IMG/VR virus record: IMGVR_UViG_3300042868_008532 | Span: 1-64,000 of that record | DNA length: 64,000 nt | Reading direction: 5' to 3' (one strand) | Source: a virus | Part shown: positions 48,811-63,929 of the stretch, piece after piece | How the letters are laid out: each line of letters opens with the position of its first letter | How positions within the stretch are numbered: position 1 is the stretch's first letter | Translations under genes and position numbers: made by a program | The notes under the pieces: model-generated | Database searches by the model: none | What the model was told of the DNA's origin: nothing | The model's input: only the letters and a program-made list of their open reading frames with translations

Positions 48811-50859
48811 ATGACAGAACCTATGGATGGTGGAAGTAACGGTGGAAATAATAAATCAGTTAAGACTGATTCATCAACACCTGTATTAGACAATTTTAGT
48901 AGAGACCTTATTAAATTAGCCGAACAAGGAAAACTTGACCCGGTAATTGGTAGAGAAAGGGAAATCACTAGAATTGCTCAGATTCTTTCACGTAGAAAGA
49001 AAAATAACCCAATCATTATTGGTGAACCTGGTTGTGGTAAAACAGCAATCGTTGAAGGTCTTGCCATTATGATTTATAATGGGGAATGTCCAAGAAACTT
49101 AATGGACAAACGTATCGTATCATTAGATATGACATCAATTGTTGCCGGAACCAAATATCGTGGACAATTTGAGGAAAGAATGAAAGTTATCATTGAAGAA
49201 CTTCAAAACGAACCTAACATTATCGTATTCATTGACGAAATCCACACAATAGTTGGTGCAGGAAATTCATCAGGTTCAATGGATGCGTCTAACATCTTTA
49301 AACCAGCACTTGCTCGTGGTGAGATTCAATGTGTTGGAGCAACAACCTTAGACGAATATCGAAAAAACTTTGAGAAAGACGGAGCGTTAGAAAGACGTTT
49401 TCAAAAAGTTGTTGTGGATTCAGCAACCAAAGAAGAAACTTTGGAAATCCTTAAAAACGTAAAAGACAAATACGAGAACTTCCATAAGGTAACTTATACG
49501 GATGAAGTATTGTCTGTATGTGTTGATTTGGCTGACCGTTATATCACTGACAGAGAATTCCCGGATAAAGGTTTTGATATCATTGATGAAGTGGGAGCAA
49601 GAAGTCAAGTTGATATTAAGATGCCGGATTCAATTGAGAAATTGAAACAACAAGCGTCTGATATCAAACAAGAAAAGATTGATGTTGTAAAACAACAACG
49701 ATATGAAGAAGCTGCGAACTTACGTGATAAAGAAAAACGTATCTTAACCAAACTTGAGACTGAAAAGAAAAAGTTTGAAGAAGAACTTCTTACTCACAAA
49801 AAAGAAATCACATTAGATTTAGTTTATGAGGTTGTGTCTAACATGACCAAAATTCCGGTAACCAAATTAAATGCTGATGAGACCAAACTATTATCTGAGA
49901 TGGAGGCAAACCTATCTGATAAAGTTATTGGACAATCTGAAGCCGTTTCAAAGATTGCTAAGTCAATCCGTAGAAACAGAATTGGTATTAAGGACCCGAA
50001 CAAACCAATCGGTTCATTTATCTTCTTAGGTTCAACAGGTGTTGGTAAAACATACTTGGCGAAACAACTAGCAAAACAAATGTTTGGTAGTGAAGATAAT
50101 ATGATTCGTGTGGATATGTCTGAATACCAAGAAAAACACACCATCTCAAGATTAATTGGAGCACCTCCGGGATACGTTGGATACGATGAAGGGGGACAAT
50201 TAACCGAACAAGTGAAAAACAAACCTTATTCTGTAATTCTATTTGATGAGATTGAGAAAGCTAACAAAGATATCTTCTCAACACTTCTTCAAGTATTAGA
50301 CGACGGTCACCTTACCGATGGTATGGGGAGAAAGATTAACTTCAAAAATTGTGTCATCATTATGACCTCTAATGTTGGAGCTAAAAAATTACAAGATTTT
50401 GGTTCAGGAGTTGGTTTTAAAACCGGAACAAGCACTTATGCTGATGAAGAATACAAACGTGATGTTCTTAAAAAAGAACTTAAGAAATTCTTCACACCGG
50501 AATTCTTAAACAGAATTGATGAGGTTGTTATCTTTAACACCCTAATTAAAGATGATGTTAAGAAAATTGTGAAATTGGAATTAGACAAACTATCTAAAAG
50601 ATTAGTTGGTTTGAAATACGATATTACATTTGATGATACCATTTTAGACCTAATCTCTGAAGTTGGATTTGATGAGACCTACGGGGCTAGACCAATCAAA
50701 AGAGCAATCCAAGATAAAATTGAGGATTTTGTGTCCGAAGAAATTATCAAAGGAAATATGGTGGAGGGTGTTCCATACACCCTTATATCCGTAGAGAAAG
50801 AAGTGGTAGTTAAACCGGAAGTTGTTAAAAAGACAAGAAAGAAAAAAGAGGACATATAG
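48811..50859 (+). CDS. ClpC/ClpA-type AAA+ unfoldase without N-domain
   Basis: 682 residues with two AAA+ modules: GEPGCGKT (71-78) with VFIDEIH, and GSTGVGKT (about 407-414) with ILFDEIEKA, plus sensor and arginine-finger-like motifs. A UVR-like coiled segment ([14 protein letters not shown]) lies between, as in ClpC. GVGFKTG near residue 534 resembles the VGF/LGF loop that docks on ClpP. The usual double Clp N-domain is missing; the first 25 residues are low complexity. It would unfold tagged proteins for host ClpP, and it lies about 2.3 kb from the tmRNA gene. Its codons look more GC-rich and host-like than the neighbouring genes. Confidence 0.8.
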
Positions 50860-50875
50860 TCCTCTTTTTTTTATT
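50846..50875. terminator. Terminator after Clp gene
   Basis: AAGAGGAC / GTCCTCTT stem with ATATA loop and T run; overlaps the Clp stop and the convergent M20 gene end. Confidence 0.8.
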
Positions 50876-51695
50876 AAAATGATTTAAAATACTTACTGTC
50901 AACTTTAAACGGGTACTTTTTATATCCCAACCCCTCAATCATCTTTTTACCTGTCTCTATTCCACTATAAACATCTTCAACAACAACATACTCATTTGGG
51001 GTGTGATAGTTGTAATAACCTATCGCAAAATTGATACAGGAGAAATCAAAGATATTCTTTAATGCGTAAACATCAGTATATGGATGTGATTGATAATCAT
51101 GTCTCCCATTAAATCCTTCATTCAATGCAACATCACAAATATTAAAGAATTCACCACCTCTTTCAAACAGTTGTGTCCCCATACAATATTCGCTTACCAT
51201 AACATTTCCCGGAGCGTCAAACTGAATACCGTATCCAACATTTAAAAAGAAATTTGGGTCGGCTTTTTTGGACCCATGACATCCGGTTTCTTCTGATACA
51301 AAGAAAGCGGCTTTTAAATTTGGTAATTCTTTCAATAGTTCCAAACAAGCAAAAACTCCACATTTATCGTCTCCCCCAATACCAGTTGGGTGTCCGAAAT
51401 GATTATAAGCCTTTAACGATGGTTTAGGTATTTTTTGTTCATTTGGTAATATTTCCTCACGAATAATAATATTGTCTAAAGAGTGAACAGTATCTGTATG
51501 TGCAATAACACAAGGAAAGTAATCAATAAATTCGTCCGTTTGTTTAACAGCGTAAATATTTTTATGTTCGTCCACATTGAAGGGAATCCCATTTTGTTCT
51601 AACCAATTGATTAGAAATTCTACCATAAGGTCTTCTTGATAAGTTTTTGTCGGGACCGACAAGACTTGTTTTAATAATTCATAATCTTTTTCCAT
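50874..51695 (-). CDS. M20-family metallopeptidase
   Basis: 273 residues. AHTDTVHS, GGDDKCGV, SEETGCHGSK, a SHPYTDVYALK strand and YYNYHTPNEY give the two-zinc ligands and catalytic acid of M20-type peptidases such as peptidase T; the dimerisation domain looks reduced. It is convergent with the Clp gene, so it might finish degradation of peptides from Clp-ClpP, though host supply is equally possible. A TATATTTG box sits 4 nt before the ATG, suggesting a leaderless host-type transcript. Confidence 0.7.
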   Translation of the reverse strand: MEKDYELLKQVLSVPTKTYQEDLMVEFLINWLEQNGIPFNVDEHKNIYAVKQTDEFIDYFPCVIAHTDTVHSLDNIIIREEILPNEQKIPKPSLKAYNHFGHPTGIGGDDKCGVFACLELLKELPNLKAAFFVSEETGCHGSKKADPNFFLNVGYGIQFDAPGNVMVSEYCMGTQLFERGGEFFNICDVALNEGFNGRHDYQSHPYTDVYALKNIFDFSCINFAIGYYNYHTPNEYVVVEDVYSGIETGKKMIEGLGYKKYPFKVDSKYFKSF

Positions 51696-53102: not shown

Positions 53103-53135
53103 TGATATTTATTTTAATAATAAATATAATTTTAT

Positions 53136-53165
53136 TTGGATTTATCCAAAAATGTATTATCTTTG
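53136..53165 (+). promoter_or_regulatory. Bacteroidota-type promoter of tmRNA
   Basis: TTG at 53136-53138, 19-nt spacer, TATCTTTG at 53158-53165. Predicted start about 53172, 8 nt before the mature tmRNA 5' end at 53180. Confidence 0.8.
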
Positions 53166-53179
53166 TGGTATCAAAATAT

Positions 53180-53573
53180 GGGAGTGACACGGAATTGACT
53201 ATTCGTAATAGTTATTCGGGGCACGTAGTGAGATGTTCTCTATCACTTAAATCTATGGGTACAACAATTTAGACGGAAACGTTTTAAACAAAATGGCTCT
53301 AGTAGGTCTTGTACGTCAAGATGAGCTTGTGAACGTAGCGTAAGCAAACACACATTGGGGTCGGTGGACATATAACCCAGCAACAGGAGTCCTTAAAAAG
53401 GTGTGGTACCTATCCGAAAAGGTACAAGTGGAGGATTAGTTCTCAGTAAACCGAACCACTCTAAAAATAAGGGAATTGTGAAATTTTGGATTGTTAGCTT
53501 AAACAATATCCTAAACGTGTAGTCCTTAATAGGTAATACAAGTAACACCGGAGTTCGAGTCTCCGCACTTCCA
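53180..53573 (+). ncRNA. ssrA: Transfer-messenger RNA (tmRNA)
   Basis: GGGAGUG (53180-53186) pairs with CACUUCC (53566-53572) as a 7-bp acceptor stem; A73 follows and CCA is not encoded. The T-arm CGGAG-UUCGAGU-CUCCG (53549-53565) is canonical, and GGAAUUGAC near the 5' end is a tmRNA D-loop-type segment. Several compact stems between about 53390 and 53520 (for example GUACCU/AGGUAC at 53406-53425) fit pseudoknot domains. A resume region UUUAGAC then GGA (53275) resembles Bacteroidota tmRNA; the frame runs 22 codons to UAA at 53341-53343. The SmpB gene lies 0.9 kb away. Confidence 0.85.
53275..53343 (+). other. tmRNA tag reading frame
   Basis: From resume codon GGA the frame gives Gly followed by 21 residues ending QDELVNVA and UAA. 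Typical tags in this phylum start with Gly and end in ALAA. The resume point is inferred from the UAGAC-GGA context, so the exact N-terminus is less certain than the end. Confidence 0.6.
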
Positions 53574-53582
53574 CAAAAAGAA

Positions 53583-53608
53583 AAACCCATCATACGATGG
53601 GTTTTTTT
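53583..53608 (+). terminator. Terminator after tmRNA
   Basis: AAACCCATC / GATGGGTTT stem with ATAC loop and T7, about 10 nt after the tmRNA 3' end. Confidence 0.8.
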
Positions 53609-53632
53609 GTTATCAGTTCAAATGTTTATTTT

Positions 53633-53992
53633 TTAATCTTGTAATAAATCCTTTGTTACCGGATTTAATTTAGTTACTAATTTATCTAATCTTGAATCAA
53701 TAGTTCTATATACCTCATCAAGACCTTTGTTTGTATCCTCAGCTCTAGCATTTATATATCTATTGGTCTCAGCATACAATTCGTCGGTTCGTTTAATCTC
53801 ACCATCTATACGACGATGTAGGTCATCACCTGTTCTATTTATTTCTGTGAAGATGTGTCCTTGTACTTGTTCCAATTGGGAACATTTATTTTTTAATCTT
53901 TTAATCTGAATGTACATCATAACCACAACTCCAACTCCCAGTACCCCGAGAACCAAAACTATACCCATAATGAACGATGTTAAATCTACCAT
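53633..53992 (-). CDS. Membrane-anchored coiled-coil protein
   Basis: 119 residues. One N-terminal membrane helix (IMGIVLVLGVLGVGVVVMMY) then a coiled tail with heptad-like spacing. Could be a spanin-like, sensor or membrane tether; no family recognised. Confidence 0.55.
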   Translation of the reverse strand: MVDLTSFIMGIVLVLGVLGVGVVVMMYIQIKRLKNKCSQLEQVQGHIFTEINRTGDDLHRRIDGEIKRTDELYAETNRYINARAEDTNKGLDEVYRTIDSRLDKLVTKLNPVTKDLLQD

Positions 53993-54032
53993 AATTTCTT
54001 TTTTTTTATTTGTTTATTATTGAACTGATAAT

Positions 54033-54413
54033 TTATTGTTTAACTCCTCCCCACAAATAACCATCACCATATGAAGTACATATTTCTTCACCGGGTTGGA
54101 TTGTTTGTAAAGAGTAAAATTGAAATGCTCGTTTAGTTGGGTGATTTCTCCACATTGCGTTATTAGTATCTGAATGATTATATATACATCCATACCCTAA
54201 TGGTATCACATATTCAGTCCAATTTGGTCCTTGAGGATAACAAAATCTATAATCATCAAGTAATCTTGATTGTTCCCATTTTTTTGTTGGTAAAGTCACT
54301 AAATGACATTCTTCAATCAACTCATCTTTTTCAATGACATCAATTGCAAATACCCCCATTCCTTTTCCTGGAGAGGGTTTAATCTCTATTTTGGTCGGTA
54401 TTAATAAATTCAT
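54033..54413 (-). CDS. SET-domain protein (putative lysine methyltransferase)
   Basis: 126 residues. GKGMGVFAIDVIEKDELIEE, then YNHSDTNNA and IQPGEEICTSYGDGY follow the SET fold: the N-terminal strand with GxG, the NHxxxxN cofactor/substrate region and the E-x8-Y end motif. It is short but complete for a minimal SET domain. Such enzymes methylate Lys on histones, ribosomal proteins or translation factors. It lies next to smpB, about 25 nt apart, so a translation-related target is plausible but not shown. Confidence 0.7.
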   Translation of the reverse strand: MNLLIPTKIEIKPSPGKGMGVFAIDVIEKDELIEECHLVTLPTKKWEQSRLLDDYRFCYPQGPNWTEYVIPLGYGCIYNHSDTNNAMWRNHPTKRAFQFYSLQTIQPGEEICTSYGDGYLWGGVKQ

Positions 54414-54428
54414 AAGTAAATTATAATA

Positions 54429-54460
54429 AAAAAAGAGACTATTTCAAGTCTCTTTTCATA
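54429..54460. terminator. Terminator at the smpB 3' end
   Basis: AAAAGAGACT / AGTCTCTTTT stem that overlaps the last codons of smpB. Confidence 0.65.
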
Positions 54461-54876
54461 TCTCTTTCAATGTCCCGAGATTTAATACTGTCTCGTTTAT
54501 CGTATGTCTTCTTTCCTTTGGCAAGAGCAATCTCCATCTTAACTAACCCGGTATCATTTATGAATACACGATAAGGAACGATGGTGGTTCCGTTGATTAG
54601 TTCGTTCTCCAATTTATTAAGTTCTTTTCGTTTAAGTAATAGTTTTCTATCCTTTACGGTCTCGTGAAAGGACCCGAACCCATAATCAGAGATATTCATT
54701 CCCTTTATAAACAACTCACCATTGTTGAAGTAACAAAACCCCTCAGATATGGAGACCTTTCCCTGACGGATGGACTTTACCTCTGAACCAACTAGTTTGA
54801 TTCCCACGATTAGTGTCTGTAGGAATGAATACTCAAACTTGGCTTTCTTATTGACTATGTTAATTGATTTTTTCAT
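54439..54876 (-). CDS. smpB: SmpB, tmRNA-binding protein
   Basis: 145 residues covering the whole family length. KKAKFEYSFLQT, GSEVKSIRQGK, the KDRKLLLKRKEL strand, the late VKMEIALAKGKKTYDKRDSI and a basic C-terminal tail (SRDIERDMKRD) match SmpB. It carries tmRNA to stalled ribosomes and mimics an anticodon in the decoding centre with that tail. A TATCTTTG box starts 4 nt before the ATG. It pairs with the tmRNA gene at 53180-53573. Confidence 0.9.
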   Translation of the reverse strand: MKKSINIVNKKAKFEYSFLQTLIVGIKLVGSEVKSIRQGKVSISEGFCYFNNGELFIKGMNISDYGFGSFHETVKDRKLLLKRKELNKLENELINGTTIVPYRVFINDTGLVKMEIALAKGKKTYDKRDSIKSRDIERDMKRDLK

Positions 54877-54953: not shown

Positions 54954-55106
54954 ATGAACCCAAGAAAAAAAGAAGAAGATAAAAAAGTAAAATTTGGAAT
55001 CTGTGTTGACCCGGTAATATACCAAAAAATGGAAGATGAGATGATTAACAAATCTCGCCTGATTGAAACACTATTGAAAGAACATTATGGAAAAAAAAGT
55101 TTGTAG
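54954..55106 (+). CDS. Small ribbon-helix-helix-like protein
   Basis: 50 residues. VKFGICVDPVIYQKMEDEM then KSRLIETLLKEHYG is a one-strand, two-helix pattern of MetJ/Arc-type ribbon-helix-helix proteins. It ends inside the HNH gene, overlapping by 20 nt in the +1 frame, so both are co-translated. A near copy in layout occurs at 58544-58696. It could repress the endonuclease. Confidence 0.6.
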   Translation: MNPRKKEEDKKVKFGICVDPVIYQKMEDEMINKSRLIETLLKEHYGKKSL

Positions 55107-55707
55107 TAAGTGTAAAGAAGAAAAAGAGGTTTGCGAGTTTGGGAAACGAAAAGATTCCAAAGATGGTCTGCGAAGTGAATGTAAAAGTTGTGCTAAAGAA
55201 TGGAGATTAAAGAATCGAGAACATTTATTAAAATATAATAAAAATTGGAAAAATTCTAATTCAGAACACGTTTATCATTATCATAAAAAATATAAAGAAG
55301 AAAATGATGAAGAATTAAAGAAATATCAAAAAGAATGGTATCTACAAAATAAAAATATTCTTAATGAAAAAATAAAACTAAAAAAATTAACAAACCCAAT
55401 ATTTTTAGTTTCGTGTTCAGTTAGAAAAAGAATGTCCGAGTATATTAAAAAAAATAATATATTGAAAAAAAATAAAACTTTTAAAGTTGTTGGATTGAAC
55501 CCTATTGAATTATCTCATTACTTGGAAACTCAATTTACAGAAGGAATGTCTTGGAATAACTATGGAAAGTATGGGTGGCATATTGACCATATAATTCCGT
55601 TATCTTCAGCAAAAAATGAAAATGAACTTTATAAGTTATGTCATTATACTAATCTCCAACCACTATGGGCAGAAGACAATCTAAAAAAATCAAATAAACT
55701 ATTATAA
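55087..55707 (+). CDS. HNH homing endonuclease
   Basis: 206 residues. The N-terminus has a CxxC...CxxC zinc region (CSKCKEEK ... CKSCAKEW); the C-terminus has WHIDHIIPLSSAKNENEL and NLQPLWAEDNLKKSNK, the HNH signature. It belongs to a cassette with an RHH-like protein and flanks the RNA locus on its left side. Confidence 0.8.
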   Translation: MEKKVCSKCKEEKEVCEFGKRKDSKDGLRSECKSCAKEWRLKNREHLLKYNKNWKNSNSEHVYHYHKKYKEENDEELKKYQKEWYLQNKNILNEKIKLKKLTNPIFLVSCSVRKRMSEYIKKNNILKKNKTFKVVGLNPIELSHYLETQFTEGMSWNNYGKYGWHIDHIIPLSSAKNENELYKLCHYTNLQPLWAEDNLKKSNKLL

Positions 55708-55745: not shown

Positions 55746-56628
55746 GGCTTAATACGATGAGAATACTCGTCTTATTGAGAATCTTCGGAAGGATTATTGT
55801 TTCCCTTCTTTTCCACCATCTTTTGAATGGTAATCCTCATTGCCGATTGGTTAGACCAATCACTCCTTAAGATATCATTTACTCTCTCATTATTCAACTC
55901 TCTTTAACCTTGCGAGCTAACTCCGGATTCGACTCCGTAGAGGTTTTTGGCGAGAATACATTCAGACTTGCGGTCATCCTGTGCAACGAACAGCTCGTTA
56001 CTATGTAGGCAACTTGTCAATGATACCTGACAGACACTTTTGCTTTTTTCTGTTTAGTTTTTCACCATATTGAAAATAGTTATTGTGTTGTGGATGTGTC
56101 CAAGTAGAGGTCTGTCTTAGGCTTCATCATCTTTTGGACGAAGAAATACCAACCTACTCGGTAGAGCGTCCCCACTCTCATATTTTAAGAATTCTTCGAA
56201 TCAAAATCTTGGTAGATGTTTGATAAGGATAATGACAGCACCACCTGTTACTTATCTTGTCTTTCGACTTTAAGATTTCTCTCATATTGGAACCCGTAAT
56301 AATTAAGTTGGATAACCTAACTTCTTACTTGATTCCTATCACTTATTCCTATTGGAGTTCCCCCCTCAACCGAAAGACCCACATCTCCCGGTCACCTAAC
56401 CACTTTCTCTAAAGCGTTGCCCTCAATACTGAAGGTCAGATGGTATGTGACTTGTATACTCGAGTCCCATTTCTGAGACCGCAAACCTGTTAACACAACA
56501 GATTCACTTTAGCCCGGTTTCCCGGTTTATTTAAGGATGATATACCACCCATTATCGTTTTTTACTCCACCGAAGTGGGTAAAGGATAATCTAAAATTTC
56601 TAAGAACGTCTTGAGGTTTCCCTCATTT
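55714..56628 (-). ncRNA. Large structured non-coding RNA (about 0.9 kb)
   Basis: No plausible ORF in either strand over about 0.9 kb. On the minus strand it follows a TTG-N19-TACCTTTG promoter and ends in a terminator. Folding marks favour this strand: a CCAC-UUCG-GUGG hairpin (56567-56578) and a CCGG-GAAA-CCGG hairpin (56514-56525). Other stems include a 14-bp hairpin with one mismatch at 55748-55779, GATTGGT/ACCAATC at 55845-55861 and an 11-bp bulged stem at 56222-56255. A T-arm-like then D-arm-like stretch occurs near 55910-55945. Its size, phage setting and tRNA-like neighbours recall GOLLD and ROOL RNAs; identity is not established. Confidence 0.7.
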
Positions 56629-57062: not shown

Positions 57063-57075
57063 TGGTTTACTTTTG

Positions 57076-57165
57076 TGGTATCAGATGGGCTCGAACCACC
57101 GGCACAGAGTCTTTCGTTACTCCTGCTCTACCAAAGGAGATAAATCTCCACTGAGCTATAATACC
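57076..57165 (-). tRNA. tRNA-like element with extra D-loop hairpin
   Basis: Acceptor GGTATTA/TGATACC with A73, D-stem GCTC/GAGC and T-arm GGTGG-TTCGAGC-CCATC are canonical. The D-loop carries an inserted GGAGA-TTTA-TCTCC hairpin between AGT and TTTGGTA. The anticodon position forms GGAGT-AA-C-GAAA-G-ACTCT, a GNRA-capped stem without U33, so no anticodon can be named. CCA not encoded. Confidence 0.55.
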
Positions 57166-57689: not shown

Positions 57690-57766
57690 TAGTCAGAACA
57701 GGATTCGAACCTGTGTGTCCACATAAGGGGTTTCCTTACCGTGCATCTCCAATGTGCTACCTGACT
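57690..57766 (-). tRNA. tRNA-like element
   Basis: Acceptor AGTCAGG/TCTGACT with A73, T-arm ACAGG-TTCGAAT-CCTGT, D-loop with TTGGA but a 3-bp D-stem. The anticodon position GTAAG-GAAACCC-CTTAT lacks U33, so no decoding identity is assigned. A GTGGACAC variable hairpin follows. Its 3' half is almost identical to the two tRNA-like elements upstream. Confidence 0.5.
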
Positions 57767-58543: not shown

Positions 58544-58696
58544 ATGGGTAGACCTAAATTAAAAGAAGACGATAAAAAAGGTAAATTAGGTATAACAATA
58601 TCTAAAGAACTTATCAATAAAATAAACAAAATTACAAATAATAAATCATTATTTATTGAAGAATTAATTATTAAATATTTCAAGAATGGAGAATAA
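58544..58696 (+). CDS. Small ribbon-helix-helix-like protein
   Basis: 50 residues, the same length as the copy at 54954. MGRPKLKEDDKKGKLGITI then SKELINKINKI and KSLFIEELIIKYF fit a ribbon-helix-helix fold. It overlaps the HNH gene by 11 nt in the +1 frame. Confidence 0.6.
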   Translation: MGRPKLKEDDKKGKLGITISKELINKINKITNNKSLFIEELIIKYFKNGE

Positions 58697-59306
58697 AATA
58701 TGTTCTAAATGTAAAGTTGAAAAACTATTATGTGATTTTCATAATAATAAAAAAGAGAAGAGTGGTAAAAACTGTCAATGTAAAAGTTGTGTAAAACTTT
58801 GTTATAAATATATTAAAAAAATACCCATTATAAATTTAGAAGAATCTATTAAAAAAGAAAATTTAAGAAAATTAAAAAAAAGTGTGTATAATAAAAAGTA
58901 TCGTGAAGAAAATCGTGAAATATTAAAGAAGAAAAAAAATATTTATAAACAAATTAGGATAAATGAAAATCCTTTAGTTAAACTACGTTTTAGGATTTCC
59001 AATAACATAACTGTTTCGTTAAAACGAAATGGTGGTAAAAAATTAAGTAAAACTACTAATATTTTAGGGTGTTCTTTTGATGATTTTAAGAAACATATTG
59101 AATTATTATGGGAATCTTGGATGAGTTGGGAAAATTATGGTAACCCAAAAGATGGTATTTATCAACCAAATAAAACTTGGGATTTAGACCATATAACTCC
59201 ATCCTCAAAGGCAACATCTGAAGAAGAAATACTTAAATTAAATCATTATAGTAACTTTCAACCATTATGTTCTTATAATAACAGATTCATAAAAAAAGGT
59301 GACTAA
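58686..59306 (+). CDS. HNH homing endonuclease
   Basis: 206 residues, exactly the length of the protein at 55087-55707. CSKCKVEK and CKSCVKLC at the N-terminus, WDLDHITPSSKATSEEE and NFQPLCSYNNRFIKKGD at the C-terminus form zinc and HNH motifs; only moderately similar to the other copy, so the two cassettes are old paralogues or separate arrivals of one family. Flanks the RNA locus on the right. Confidence 0.8.
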   Translation: MENKICSKCKVEKLLCDFHNNKKEKSGKNCQCKSCVKLCYKYIKKIPIINLEESIKKENLRKLKKSVYNKKYREENREILKKKKNIYKQIRINENPLVKLRFRISNNITVSLKRNGGKKLSKTTNILGCSFDDFKKHIELLWESWMSWENYGNPKDGIYQPNKTWDLDHITPSSKATSEEEILKLNHYSNFQPLCSYNNRFIKKGD

Positions 59307-63188: not shown

Positions 63189-63929
63189 CTAATGACTCAC
63201 TCTCCCATCTTTATTTATATTCATAGTTTTAATATAATTTTCGTTATTTATAATTTTACTAATATGTGATTGGTTAACACCATACATTTGAGCAATTTTT
63301 GTTTGACTTACCCCCTCTTTGTTCAATTTTTTTATCTCATTATAATCACATTCCTCTAACTTAACATATTGTTTTTTTCTTAAAGACAAATCTAAATCTG
63401 TTGCAATAGTTTTATATCTTTTCTCAATCAAAATCAAACCAATTGTTCTCCTACTTACAGAATATAAATCACTAATTTCTTTTTGAGTTAATTTATTTTC
63501 AATTAACAACAATTTTATCTCTCGAACTTGTTCCGGTGTTAACTTTTTTAAGGATGACTCATAATGTCCGTGAATTTTACCAACGTTAACACTTTTGTTT
63601 GAGGAGCCTATCTTATCTTTTGTGTCTTGTGACATATACACATAACCTTCCATTGATTTAGGTAAACGACAATTTAAACCTATTTTATTATCTAAACATT
63701 CATAAAATGTACCATAAAATAACTCCCGTTCTAAAAGAATTTCAATATCACATTCTTCAATAACTTCAAAAATGTGATTATCAACACCATATTTTACTAA
63801 CGAGTTATATAATTTAGTTTGACTATTACATCTTAATTTTTTATACCACTTCCAACGAGTATCAACATCTTTTGATGAACCGATATATACAAGACCTTTT
63901 GGACTTGTTATTTTATAAACTCCAATCAT
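63189..63929 (-). CDS. GIY-YIG homing endonuclease
   Basis: 246 residues. GVYKITS ... VYIGSSKDVDTRW gives the GIY-YIG core with Arg, and ERELFYGTFYECLDNKIGLN the Glu and Asn. The C-terminal half has two helix-turn-helix segments (LTQKEISDLYSVSRRTIG; SQTKIAQMYGVNQSHIS) for site recognition. A TATTTAT box lies 16 nt upstream. It sits inside the reading frame described at 62867-63187. Confidence 0.85.
   Translation of the reverse strand: MIGVYKITSPKGLVYIGSSKDVDTRWKWYKKLRCNSQTKLYNSLVKYGVDNHIFEVIEECDIEILLERELFYGTFYECLDNKIGLNCRLPKSMEGYVYMSQDTKDKIGSSNKSVNVGKIHGHYESSLKKLTPEQVREIKLLLIENKLTQKEISDLYSVSRRTIGLILIEKRYKTIATDLDLSLRKKQYVKLEECDYNEIKKLNKEGVSQTKIAQMYGVNQSHISKIINNENYIKTMNINKDGRVSH

Follow-up and report, generated by a model that had tools for sequence, protein, structure and literature searches.

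A phage-encoded tmRNA and SmpB beside a Clp unfoldase suggest a trans-translation module in large T4-like phages

Results

A complete tmRNA-SmpB pair is encoded beside a Clp unfoldase gene in a large T4-like phage of Bacteroidota-type bacteria. These genes probably form a phage trans-translation module that combines ribosome rescue with Clp clean-up, the latter being carried out partly by the phage's own Clp machinery. The window, which is the whole 64,000-nucleotide stretch of DNA analysed here, comes from a source record that is a 77.9-kb fragment, and a 318-kb virus contig matches the last 19.6 kb of the window with 100% identity. The genome context includes a gp23-like major head protein, a portal, a terminase, and an RNA ligase/tail-fibre attachment gene, which support the T4-like label given in the initial annotation. 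No match was found by megablast of the window or by blastn of the tmRNA against annotated phages. The block of tmRNA, SmpB, and GOLLD RNA recurs in dozens of large-phage contigs of up to 322 kb.

The one-piece tmRNA (ssrA) gene is located at 53180–53576 on the plus strand. In the cmscan search, this region matched RF00023 over the full length of the model (1–374) with 65.7 bits and an E value of 2.3e-23, above the gathering score of 47 bits. The acceptor stem is GGGAGUG/CACUUCC with G3:U70, and the T-arm is CGGAG-UUCGAGU-CUCCG. By sequence and covariation, the T-arm, the 3' acceptor strand, and the discriminator A of the tRNA-like domain occupy 53549–53573 (+), and CCA is not encoded at the 3' end. 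UAGAC lies just before the resume codon (53270–53274, +), and the same or a related motif (UAGAC, UAAAC, or UAAAU) is present at the resume site in the relatives. The exact motif of a Bacteroidota-type promoter, TTTG-N19-TATCTTTG, was found at 53135–53165 (+), 14 nt 5' of the tmRNA start; it has 13 matches on both strands of the whole window. A TTTG-N19/20-TAnnTTTG promoter lies 14–18 nt 5' of the tmRNA at 24 of 30 loci, and host-type promoters with the common TATCTTTG core stand before the tmRNA and, in most relatives shown, before smpB. The gene is followed by an intrinsic terminator (53584–53608, +), consisting of the AACCCATC..GATGGGTT hairpin and then a T run. Every part of the gene first described from the sequence, namely the acceptor stem, T-arm, tag frame, host-type promoter, and terminator, was located.

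Single-sequence folding of the tmRNA was no better than that of shuffled sequences (z −0.63; pseudoknots lie outside the folding model), so covariation was used instead. In a comparison of 20 relatives, both partners of several acceptor-stem pairs are exchanged (A-U to G-C in 10 of 20, G-C to A-U in 6 of 20), the column pair 5–422 is A-U in 10 and G-C in 10, and all five pairs of the T-arm covary. The G3:U70 wobble, an alanine identity element, was invariant in 20/20. The tag reading frame (53275–53343, +), which encodes GNVLNKMALVGLVRQDELVNVA in 22 codons followed by a stop, is conserved in 26 distinct sequences of the phage clade, which give 16 peptides of 21–22 residues. The synonymous fraction of the tag codon differences was 0.334 in frame, compared with 0.132 and 0.077 in the shifted frames, and the in-frame value was reached by 1 of 300 column permutations. 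The ARAGORN call in one relative (L067) independently gave the same tag frame. These comparisons argue that the tag frame is under protein-level constraint. As the stems covary, the G:U pair is unchanging, and the tag frame is constrained, the evidence indicates that the phage tmRNA is a maintained, selected gene and no relic. We infer from these features that it would be charged with alanine and would enter stalled ribosomes.

In L072, L074, L077, and L091, a second T-arm/acceptor 3' end directly follows the tmRNA (e.g., CACCGGAGAGTCCCGACACCTCCA), as if duplicated by recombination or insertion. In L074, L080, L091, and L179, the 3' half of the tmRNA is of a different sequence type and the tag region is unchanged, suggesting mosaic exchange inside the gene.

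The tag peptide predicted to be placed on non-stop products by the phage tmRNA is AGNVLNKMALVGLVRQDELVNVA. The commonest pattern in the clade is GN[VI]L[ND]K[ML]..hG[LF]hR..E...VA, and divergent members such as GETIAKLSAVGLIRSEEVVTA also exist. The phage tmRNA shares with the Bacteroidota one-piece tmRNA (RF00023) the tRNA-like domain and the resume signal before a G-initial tag, and its length is similar to the 370–406 nt of the sampled hosts, but it scores weaker on the model. Moreover, all 16 clade tag variants end in VA (VS once), whereas those of the sampled Bacteroidota hosts are 8–10 residues long with Leu/Met-Ala-Ala at the end. No tag outside this phage clade was seen to end in Val-Ala. 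Although the canonical Ala-Ala C terminus is absent from the clade tag, Ala-Ala is usual and not defining for tmRNA, and membership still stands because known tmRNA tags vary. The known tag length ranges from 8 to 35 residues (PMC8012679), and the long phage tags fall inside it. Long tags with an Ala-Ala end occur in some other phage lineages (GKKSVWDAINSFGTPVTEVEYAYAA, GKKSVWDVINAFGTPVAEVELAYAA), the 636-kb LR756504 has the Ala-Ala-ended tag NDNVNSFEQSILNELFAPVEMAVAA, and the Lak phage tags are shorter (NDDEI[ED]FRMAA). With Ala-Ala at the tag ends of other huge-phage lineages, a "private degron" in Val-Ala is no general feature.

ARAGORN missed the tmRNA at 53180–53576 in the window. It missed 36 of the 38 phage tmRNAs tested, whereas 11 of 12 Bacteroidota host tmRNAs were called. 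The tmRNA calls in the 2020 study of huge phages also came from ARAGORN (PMC7162821). Given this miss rate, phage tmRNAs have probably been undercounted in earlier work. The tmRNAs of Lak-C1 (L200; 182229–182625, −; tag NDDEIDFRMAA) and Lak-B5 (L201; 409798–410207, +; tag NDDEIEFRMAA), both just above the Rfam cut-off, were likewise missed by ARAGORN.

The smpB gene (54439–54876, −) encodes 145 amino acids and lies on the strand opposite to the tmRNA gene, with 0.86 kb between them. The protein matched PF01668 with 163.7 bits over positions 2–142 of 143, i.e., at full length (curated cut-off, 27 bits), and PDB SmpB relatives were also found. The claim of a full-length SmpB about 0.9 kb from the tmRNA therefore holds. 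In an alignment with Bacteroidota SmpBs, other phage SmpBs, and a sequence that we take to be E. coli SmpB, the conserved core and tail motifs are kept (GSEVKS, RKLLL, and GKKxxDKR with the following charged C-terminal helix), and the phage SmpB is predicted to bind tmRNA. The phage SmpBs of the clade cluster together (SH-aLRT 94) and are separated from the sampled bacterial SmpBs, and their nearest bacterial relatives are Bacteroidota SmpBs with up to 59% identity. This separate grouping argues for a long residence of SmpB in phages rather than a recent acquisition. A gene for a SET-domain protein (54033–54413, −; PF00856, 49.5 bits) lies between the tmRNA and smpB.

Full-length tmRNA was found in 35 (33 above the cut-off) and GOLLD in 36 of the 50 SmpB-bearing virus records collected by SmpB first; these are related contigs and not independent events. 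A converse scan with a tmRNA DNA pattern gave 49 contigs, of which 34 were outside the SmpB list. SmpB was found in 1 and GOLLD in 14 of these 34, which are fragments that may have SmpB elsewhere and were picked by their absence from the SmpB list, so that the SmpB rate is biased. Overall, SmpB was present in 16 of the 49 tmRNA-pattern contigs. The gene order in L269 is Clp, peptidase, orf454, tmRNA, and GOLLD, smpB being absent between tmRNA and GOLLD, and the tmRNA-Clp-GOLLD block without SmpB occurs in several relatives. By the converse scan, the view that the phage tmRNA must have a linked SmpB partner is rejected; SmpB is optional in the clade. As some relatives keep tmRNA without SmpB, the phage protein may serve just as an enhancer.

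A ClpC-type double-AAA+ unfoldase that lacks the N-terminal domain is encoded at 48811–50859 (+) (phrog_4871, 803 bits), which confirms the nearby Clp unfoldase of the initial annotation. Its best PDB matches are ClpC, and the protein starts at about ClpC residue 150; as Pfam gave no match to the Clp_N domain, we named it ClpC-type and not ClpC. It has two AAA+ modules, a ClpC-like middle region, and VGF at the position of the putative ClpP-docking loop. In 17 of 18 records, the unfoldase gene shares the strand of the tmRNA and lies 2.4–6.2 kb 5' of it; these include G024, whose smpB is found at a distance of 194 kb on the contig. ClpP (PF00574) was found in 6/6 searched records of at least 280 kb, so that clade records of this size encode both proteins, and the catalytic Ser, His, and Asp positions of ClpP are kept, by inspection, in the five records read. 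The window's own 78-kb record has no ClpP; we infer ClpP in its phage from the 318-kb contig that is identical over 19.6 kb, which would give the phage the larger part of a tag-and-degrade chain. In a separate lineage, smpB is located directly after clpP (L049) or one gene from it (L241). The G048 lineage also has Clp and ClpP genes, yet its tag ends in Ala-Ala.

An M20-family-like peptidase gene (50874–51695, −; phrog_4191, 124.5 bits; Pfam M20 match below the cut-off) is located between Clp and the tmRNA. It is retained in the SmpB-less relatives examined, and downstream processing of peptides is a possible role. The likeness to the ClpC-ClpP protease consists of the double AAA+ architecture, the VGF at the loop position, and the catalytic residues of the phage ClpP, whereas the phage unfoldase has no N-terminal adaptor domain and is phage-encoded near the tmRNA. 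The neighbourhood of tmRNA and Clp in nearly all records, the ClpP of the largest records, and the smpB genes adjoining clpP make the link with proteolysis stronger than was known at the initial annotation.

GOLLD RNA was found 5' of smpB at 55754–56161 (−), with 306.3 bits on RF02032 (gathering score, 150 bits). It is on the smpB strand in 35/35 records, and the tmRNA is on the strand opposite to smpB and GOLLD in 30 of 31. None of the 14 control genomes had GOLLD. An Endonuclease VII/HNH-like ORF (55087–55707, +; phrog_1035) is inserted between GOLLD and smpB in the window; in relatives without this ORF, GOLLD lies just 73–98 bp 5' of smpB. In most of the short-gap relatives, the gap of about 75 bp contains a terminator (hairpin plus T run) and a separate promoter (TTTG-N19-TATCTTTG), which makes one transcript of GOLLD and smpB unlikely in them. 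In the window, the −33 TTTG of the smpB promoter is lost beside the inserted nuclease gene. A general tie between GOLLD and SmpB is unsupported, as the two are separated by more than 60 kb in LR756502 and LR745206.

Discussion

A 2014 survey counted about ten phages with ssrA but none with smpB, for which a single plasmid was the only case outside bacterial chromosomes (PMC4131195). One sentence in a 2020 paper stated that huge phages encode tmRNAs and SmpB (PMC7162821). The pair in the window had been presented as new; the complete and selected pair is real, but the combination had already been stated in that paper. Both parts in one phage are the likeness to those huge phages and to the Lak megaphages, and we confirmed both in Lak-B5, Lak-C1, and LR756504. 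However, smpB and tmRNA are unlinked in these three, whereas here they are neighbours beside Clp and GOLLD, and their tags given above are unlike those of the clade. The mycobacteriophage Bxz1 group, Bacillus phage G, and Melnitz, whose two-piece tmRNA comes with a glutamine riboswitch (PMC9004378), also encode tmRNA, but without SmpB. Newly seen in this study are the conserved non-canonical tag, the linkage with Clp and ClpP, the recurring tmRNA/SmpB/GOLLD block, the tmRNAs of the Lak megaphages, and the blindness of ARAGORN to most of the phage tmRNAs tested.

In the proposed module, the tmRNA would be expressed from its host-type promoter and charged by the host alanyl-tRNA synthetase, as the kept G3:U70 suggests. 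The phage SmpB, or the host SmpB in relatives without the gene, would bring it to ribosomes that stall during infection on mRNAs that are broken or lack a stop codon. Translation would resume on the 22-codon phage tag, and the ribosome would be freed. The tagged fragments would then be degraded, most likely by Clp proteolysis; the ClpC-type unfoldase gene by the tmRNA, ClpP, and the Val-Ala end make it probable that the phage's own Clp machinery takes a part, and the protease reading the tag is proposed here from gene content and tag sequence. Damage to mRNA or tRNA in infection, including that by host defences, is the simplest reason for such a module, and it is plausible that rescue counters RNA cleavage by the host. 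The suggestion that the phage controls ribosome rescue itself is thus retained in part: the pair is selected and linked with Clp and ClpP, but SmpB is not obligate and was present in only one of the 34 further contigs.

A simpler reading, to which we give a lower but still considerable probability, is that the phage tmRNA and SmpB only recycle ribosomes, that host ClpXP or Lon destroys the products, and that the phage Clp is used otherwise, with Val-Ala being drift that the host proteases accept. Since one ssrA variant with an LVA end is known to act as a degradation tag (PMC9382460), Val-Ala does not preclude a degron, and the G048 lineage combines Clp and ClpP with an Ala-Ala tag. This reading does not account well for the consistent difference in length and C terminus between all 16 clade tag variants and the sampled host tags, nor for the conserved tmRNA-Clp linkage; moreover, E. 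coli ClpXP recognises tags mainly by their terminal Ala-Ala (PMC7652416). A further extension of the proposed module, in which the Val-Ala tag would be a private channel read by the N-domainless ClpC-type unfoldase and ClpP of the phage over host ClpXP, with the GOLLD nanocage RNA in the same rescue programme, appears rather unlikely.

It is quite improbable that the phage tmRNA and/or SmpB are decoys that block host trans-translation, as was proposed for the ssrA of DS6A, which has the tRNA-like domain only. Such a molecule inhibits tmRNA (PMC4131195), and some relatives have tmRNA without SmpB. However, a decoy needs no conserved tag, whereas the frame here is under protein-level constraint, and SmpB is full-length with its C-terminal tail residues kept. 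The least credible reading is a passenger or relic, consisting of host ssrA and smpB acquired recently when a prophage was excised imprecisely or brought in by a contaminated assembly: prophages are known to integrate at ssrA (discussed in PMC9004378) and several database "phage" SmpB matches resemble host flanks of prophages, but the SmpB tree and the recurrence of the block in dozens of contigs rule out host contamination or a prophage edge, and the compensatory stem changes in the tmRNA also speak against it.

The module with probable own Clp clean-up therefore remains our preferred reading. Trans-translation usually counts as a function of the host, of which phages make use; the phage clade described here keeps its own RNA, partner protein, unfoldase, and peptidase. 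As the clade tag is consistently unlike the host tag, the question of phage-redirected rescue and protein clean-up is directly testable, and so is whether phage rescue counters host RNA-cleaving defences.

GOLLD has been described as a phage RNA whose function is unknown; it is located near tRNA islands and assembles into a 14-mer cage, and ribosomes were reported to bind it in pull-downs (PMC12286853). No paper tying GOLLD to SmpB in phages or to a tmRNA/smpB neighbourhood was found in the literature searched. The GOLLD of the window is a full-length model match in a phage near tRNAs, as usual, but it differs in its constant proximity to tmRNA and smpB in this clade, and this recurring neighbourhood of tmRNA and GOLLD gives a concrete lead on the RNA. 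On the GOLLD side of the module, a tRNA-Thr (GGT) gene (57075–57165, −) and a second tRNA gene (57690–57766, −) are present. More homing-endonuclease-like genes were also observed near the module at 58686–59306 (+) and 63189–63929 (−).
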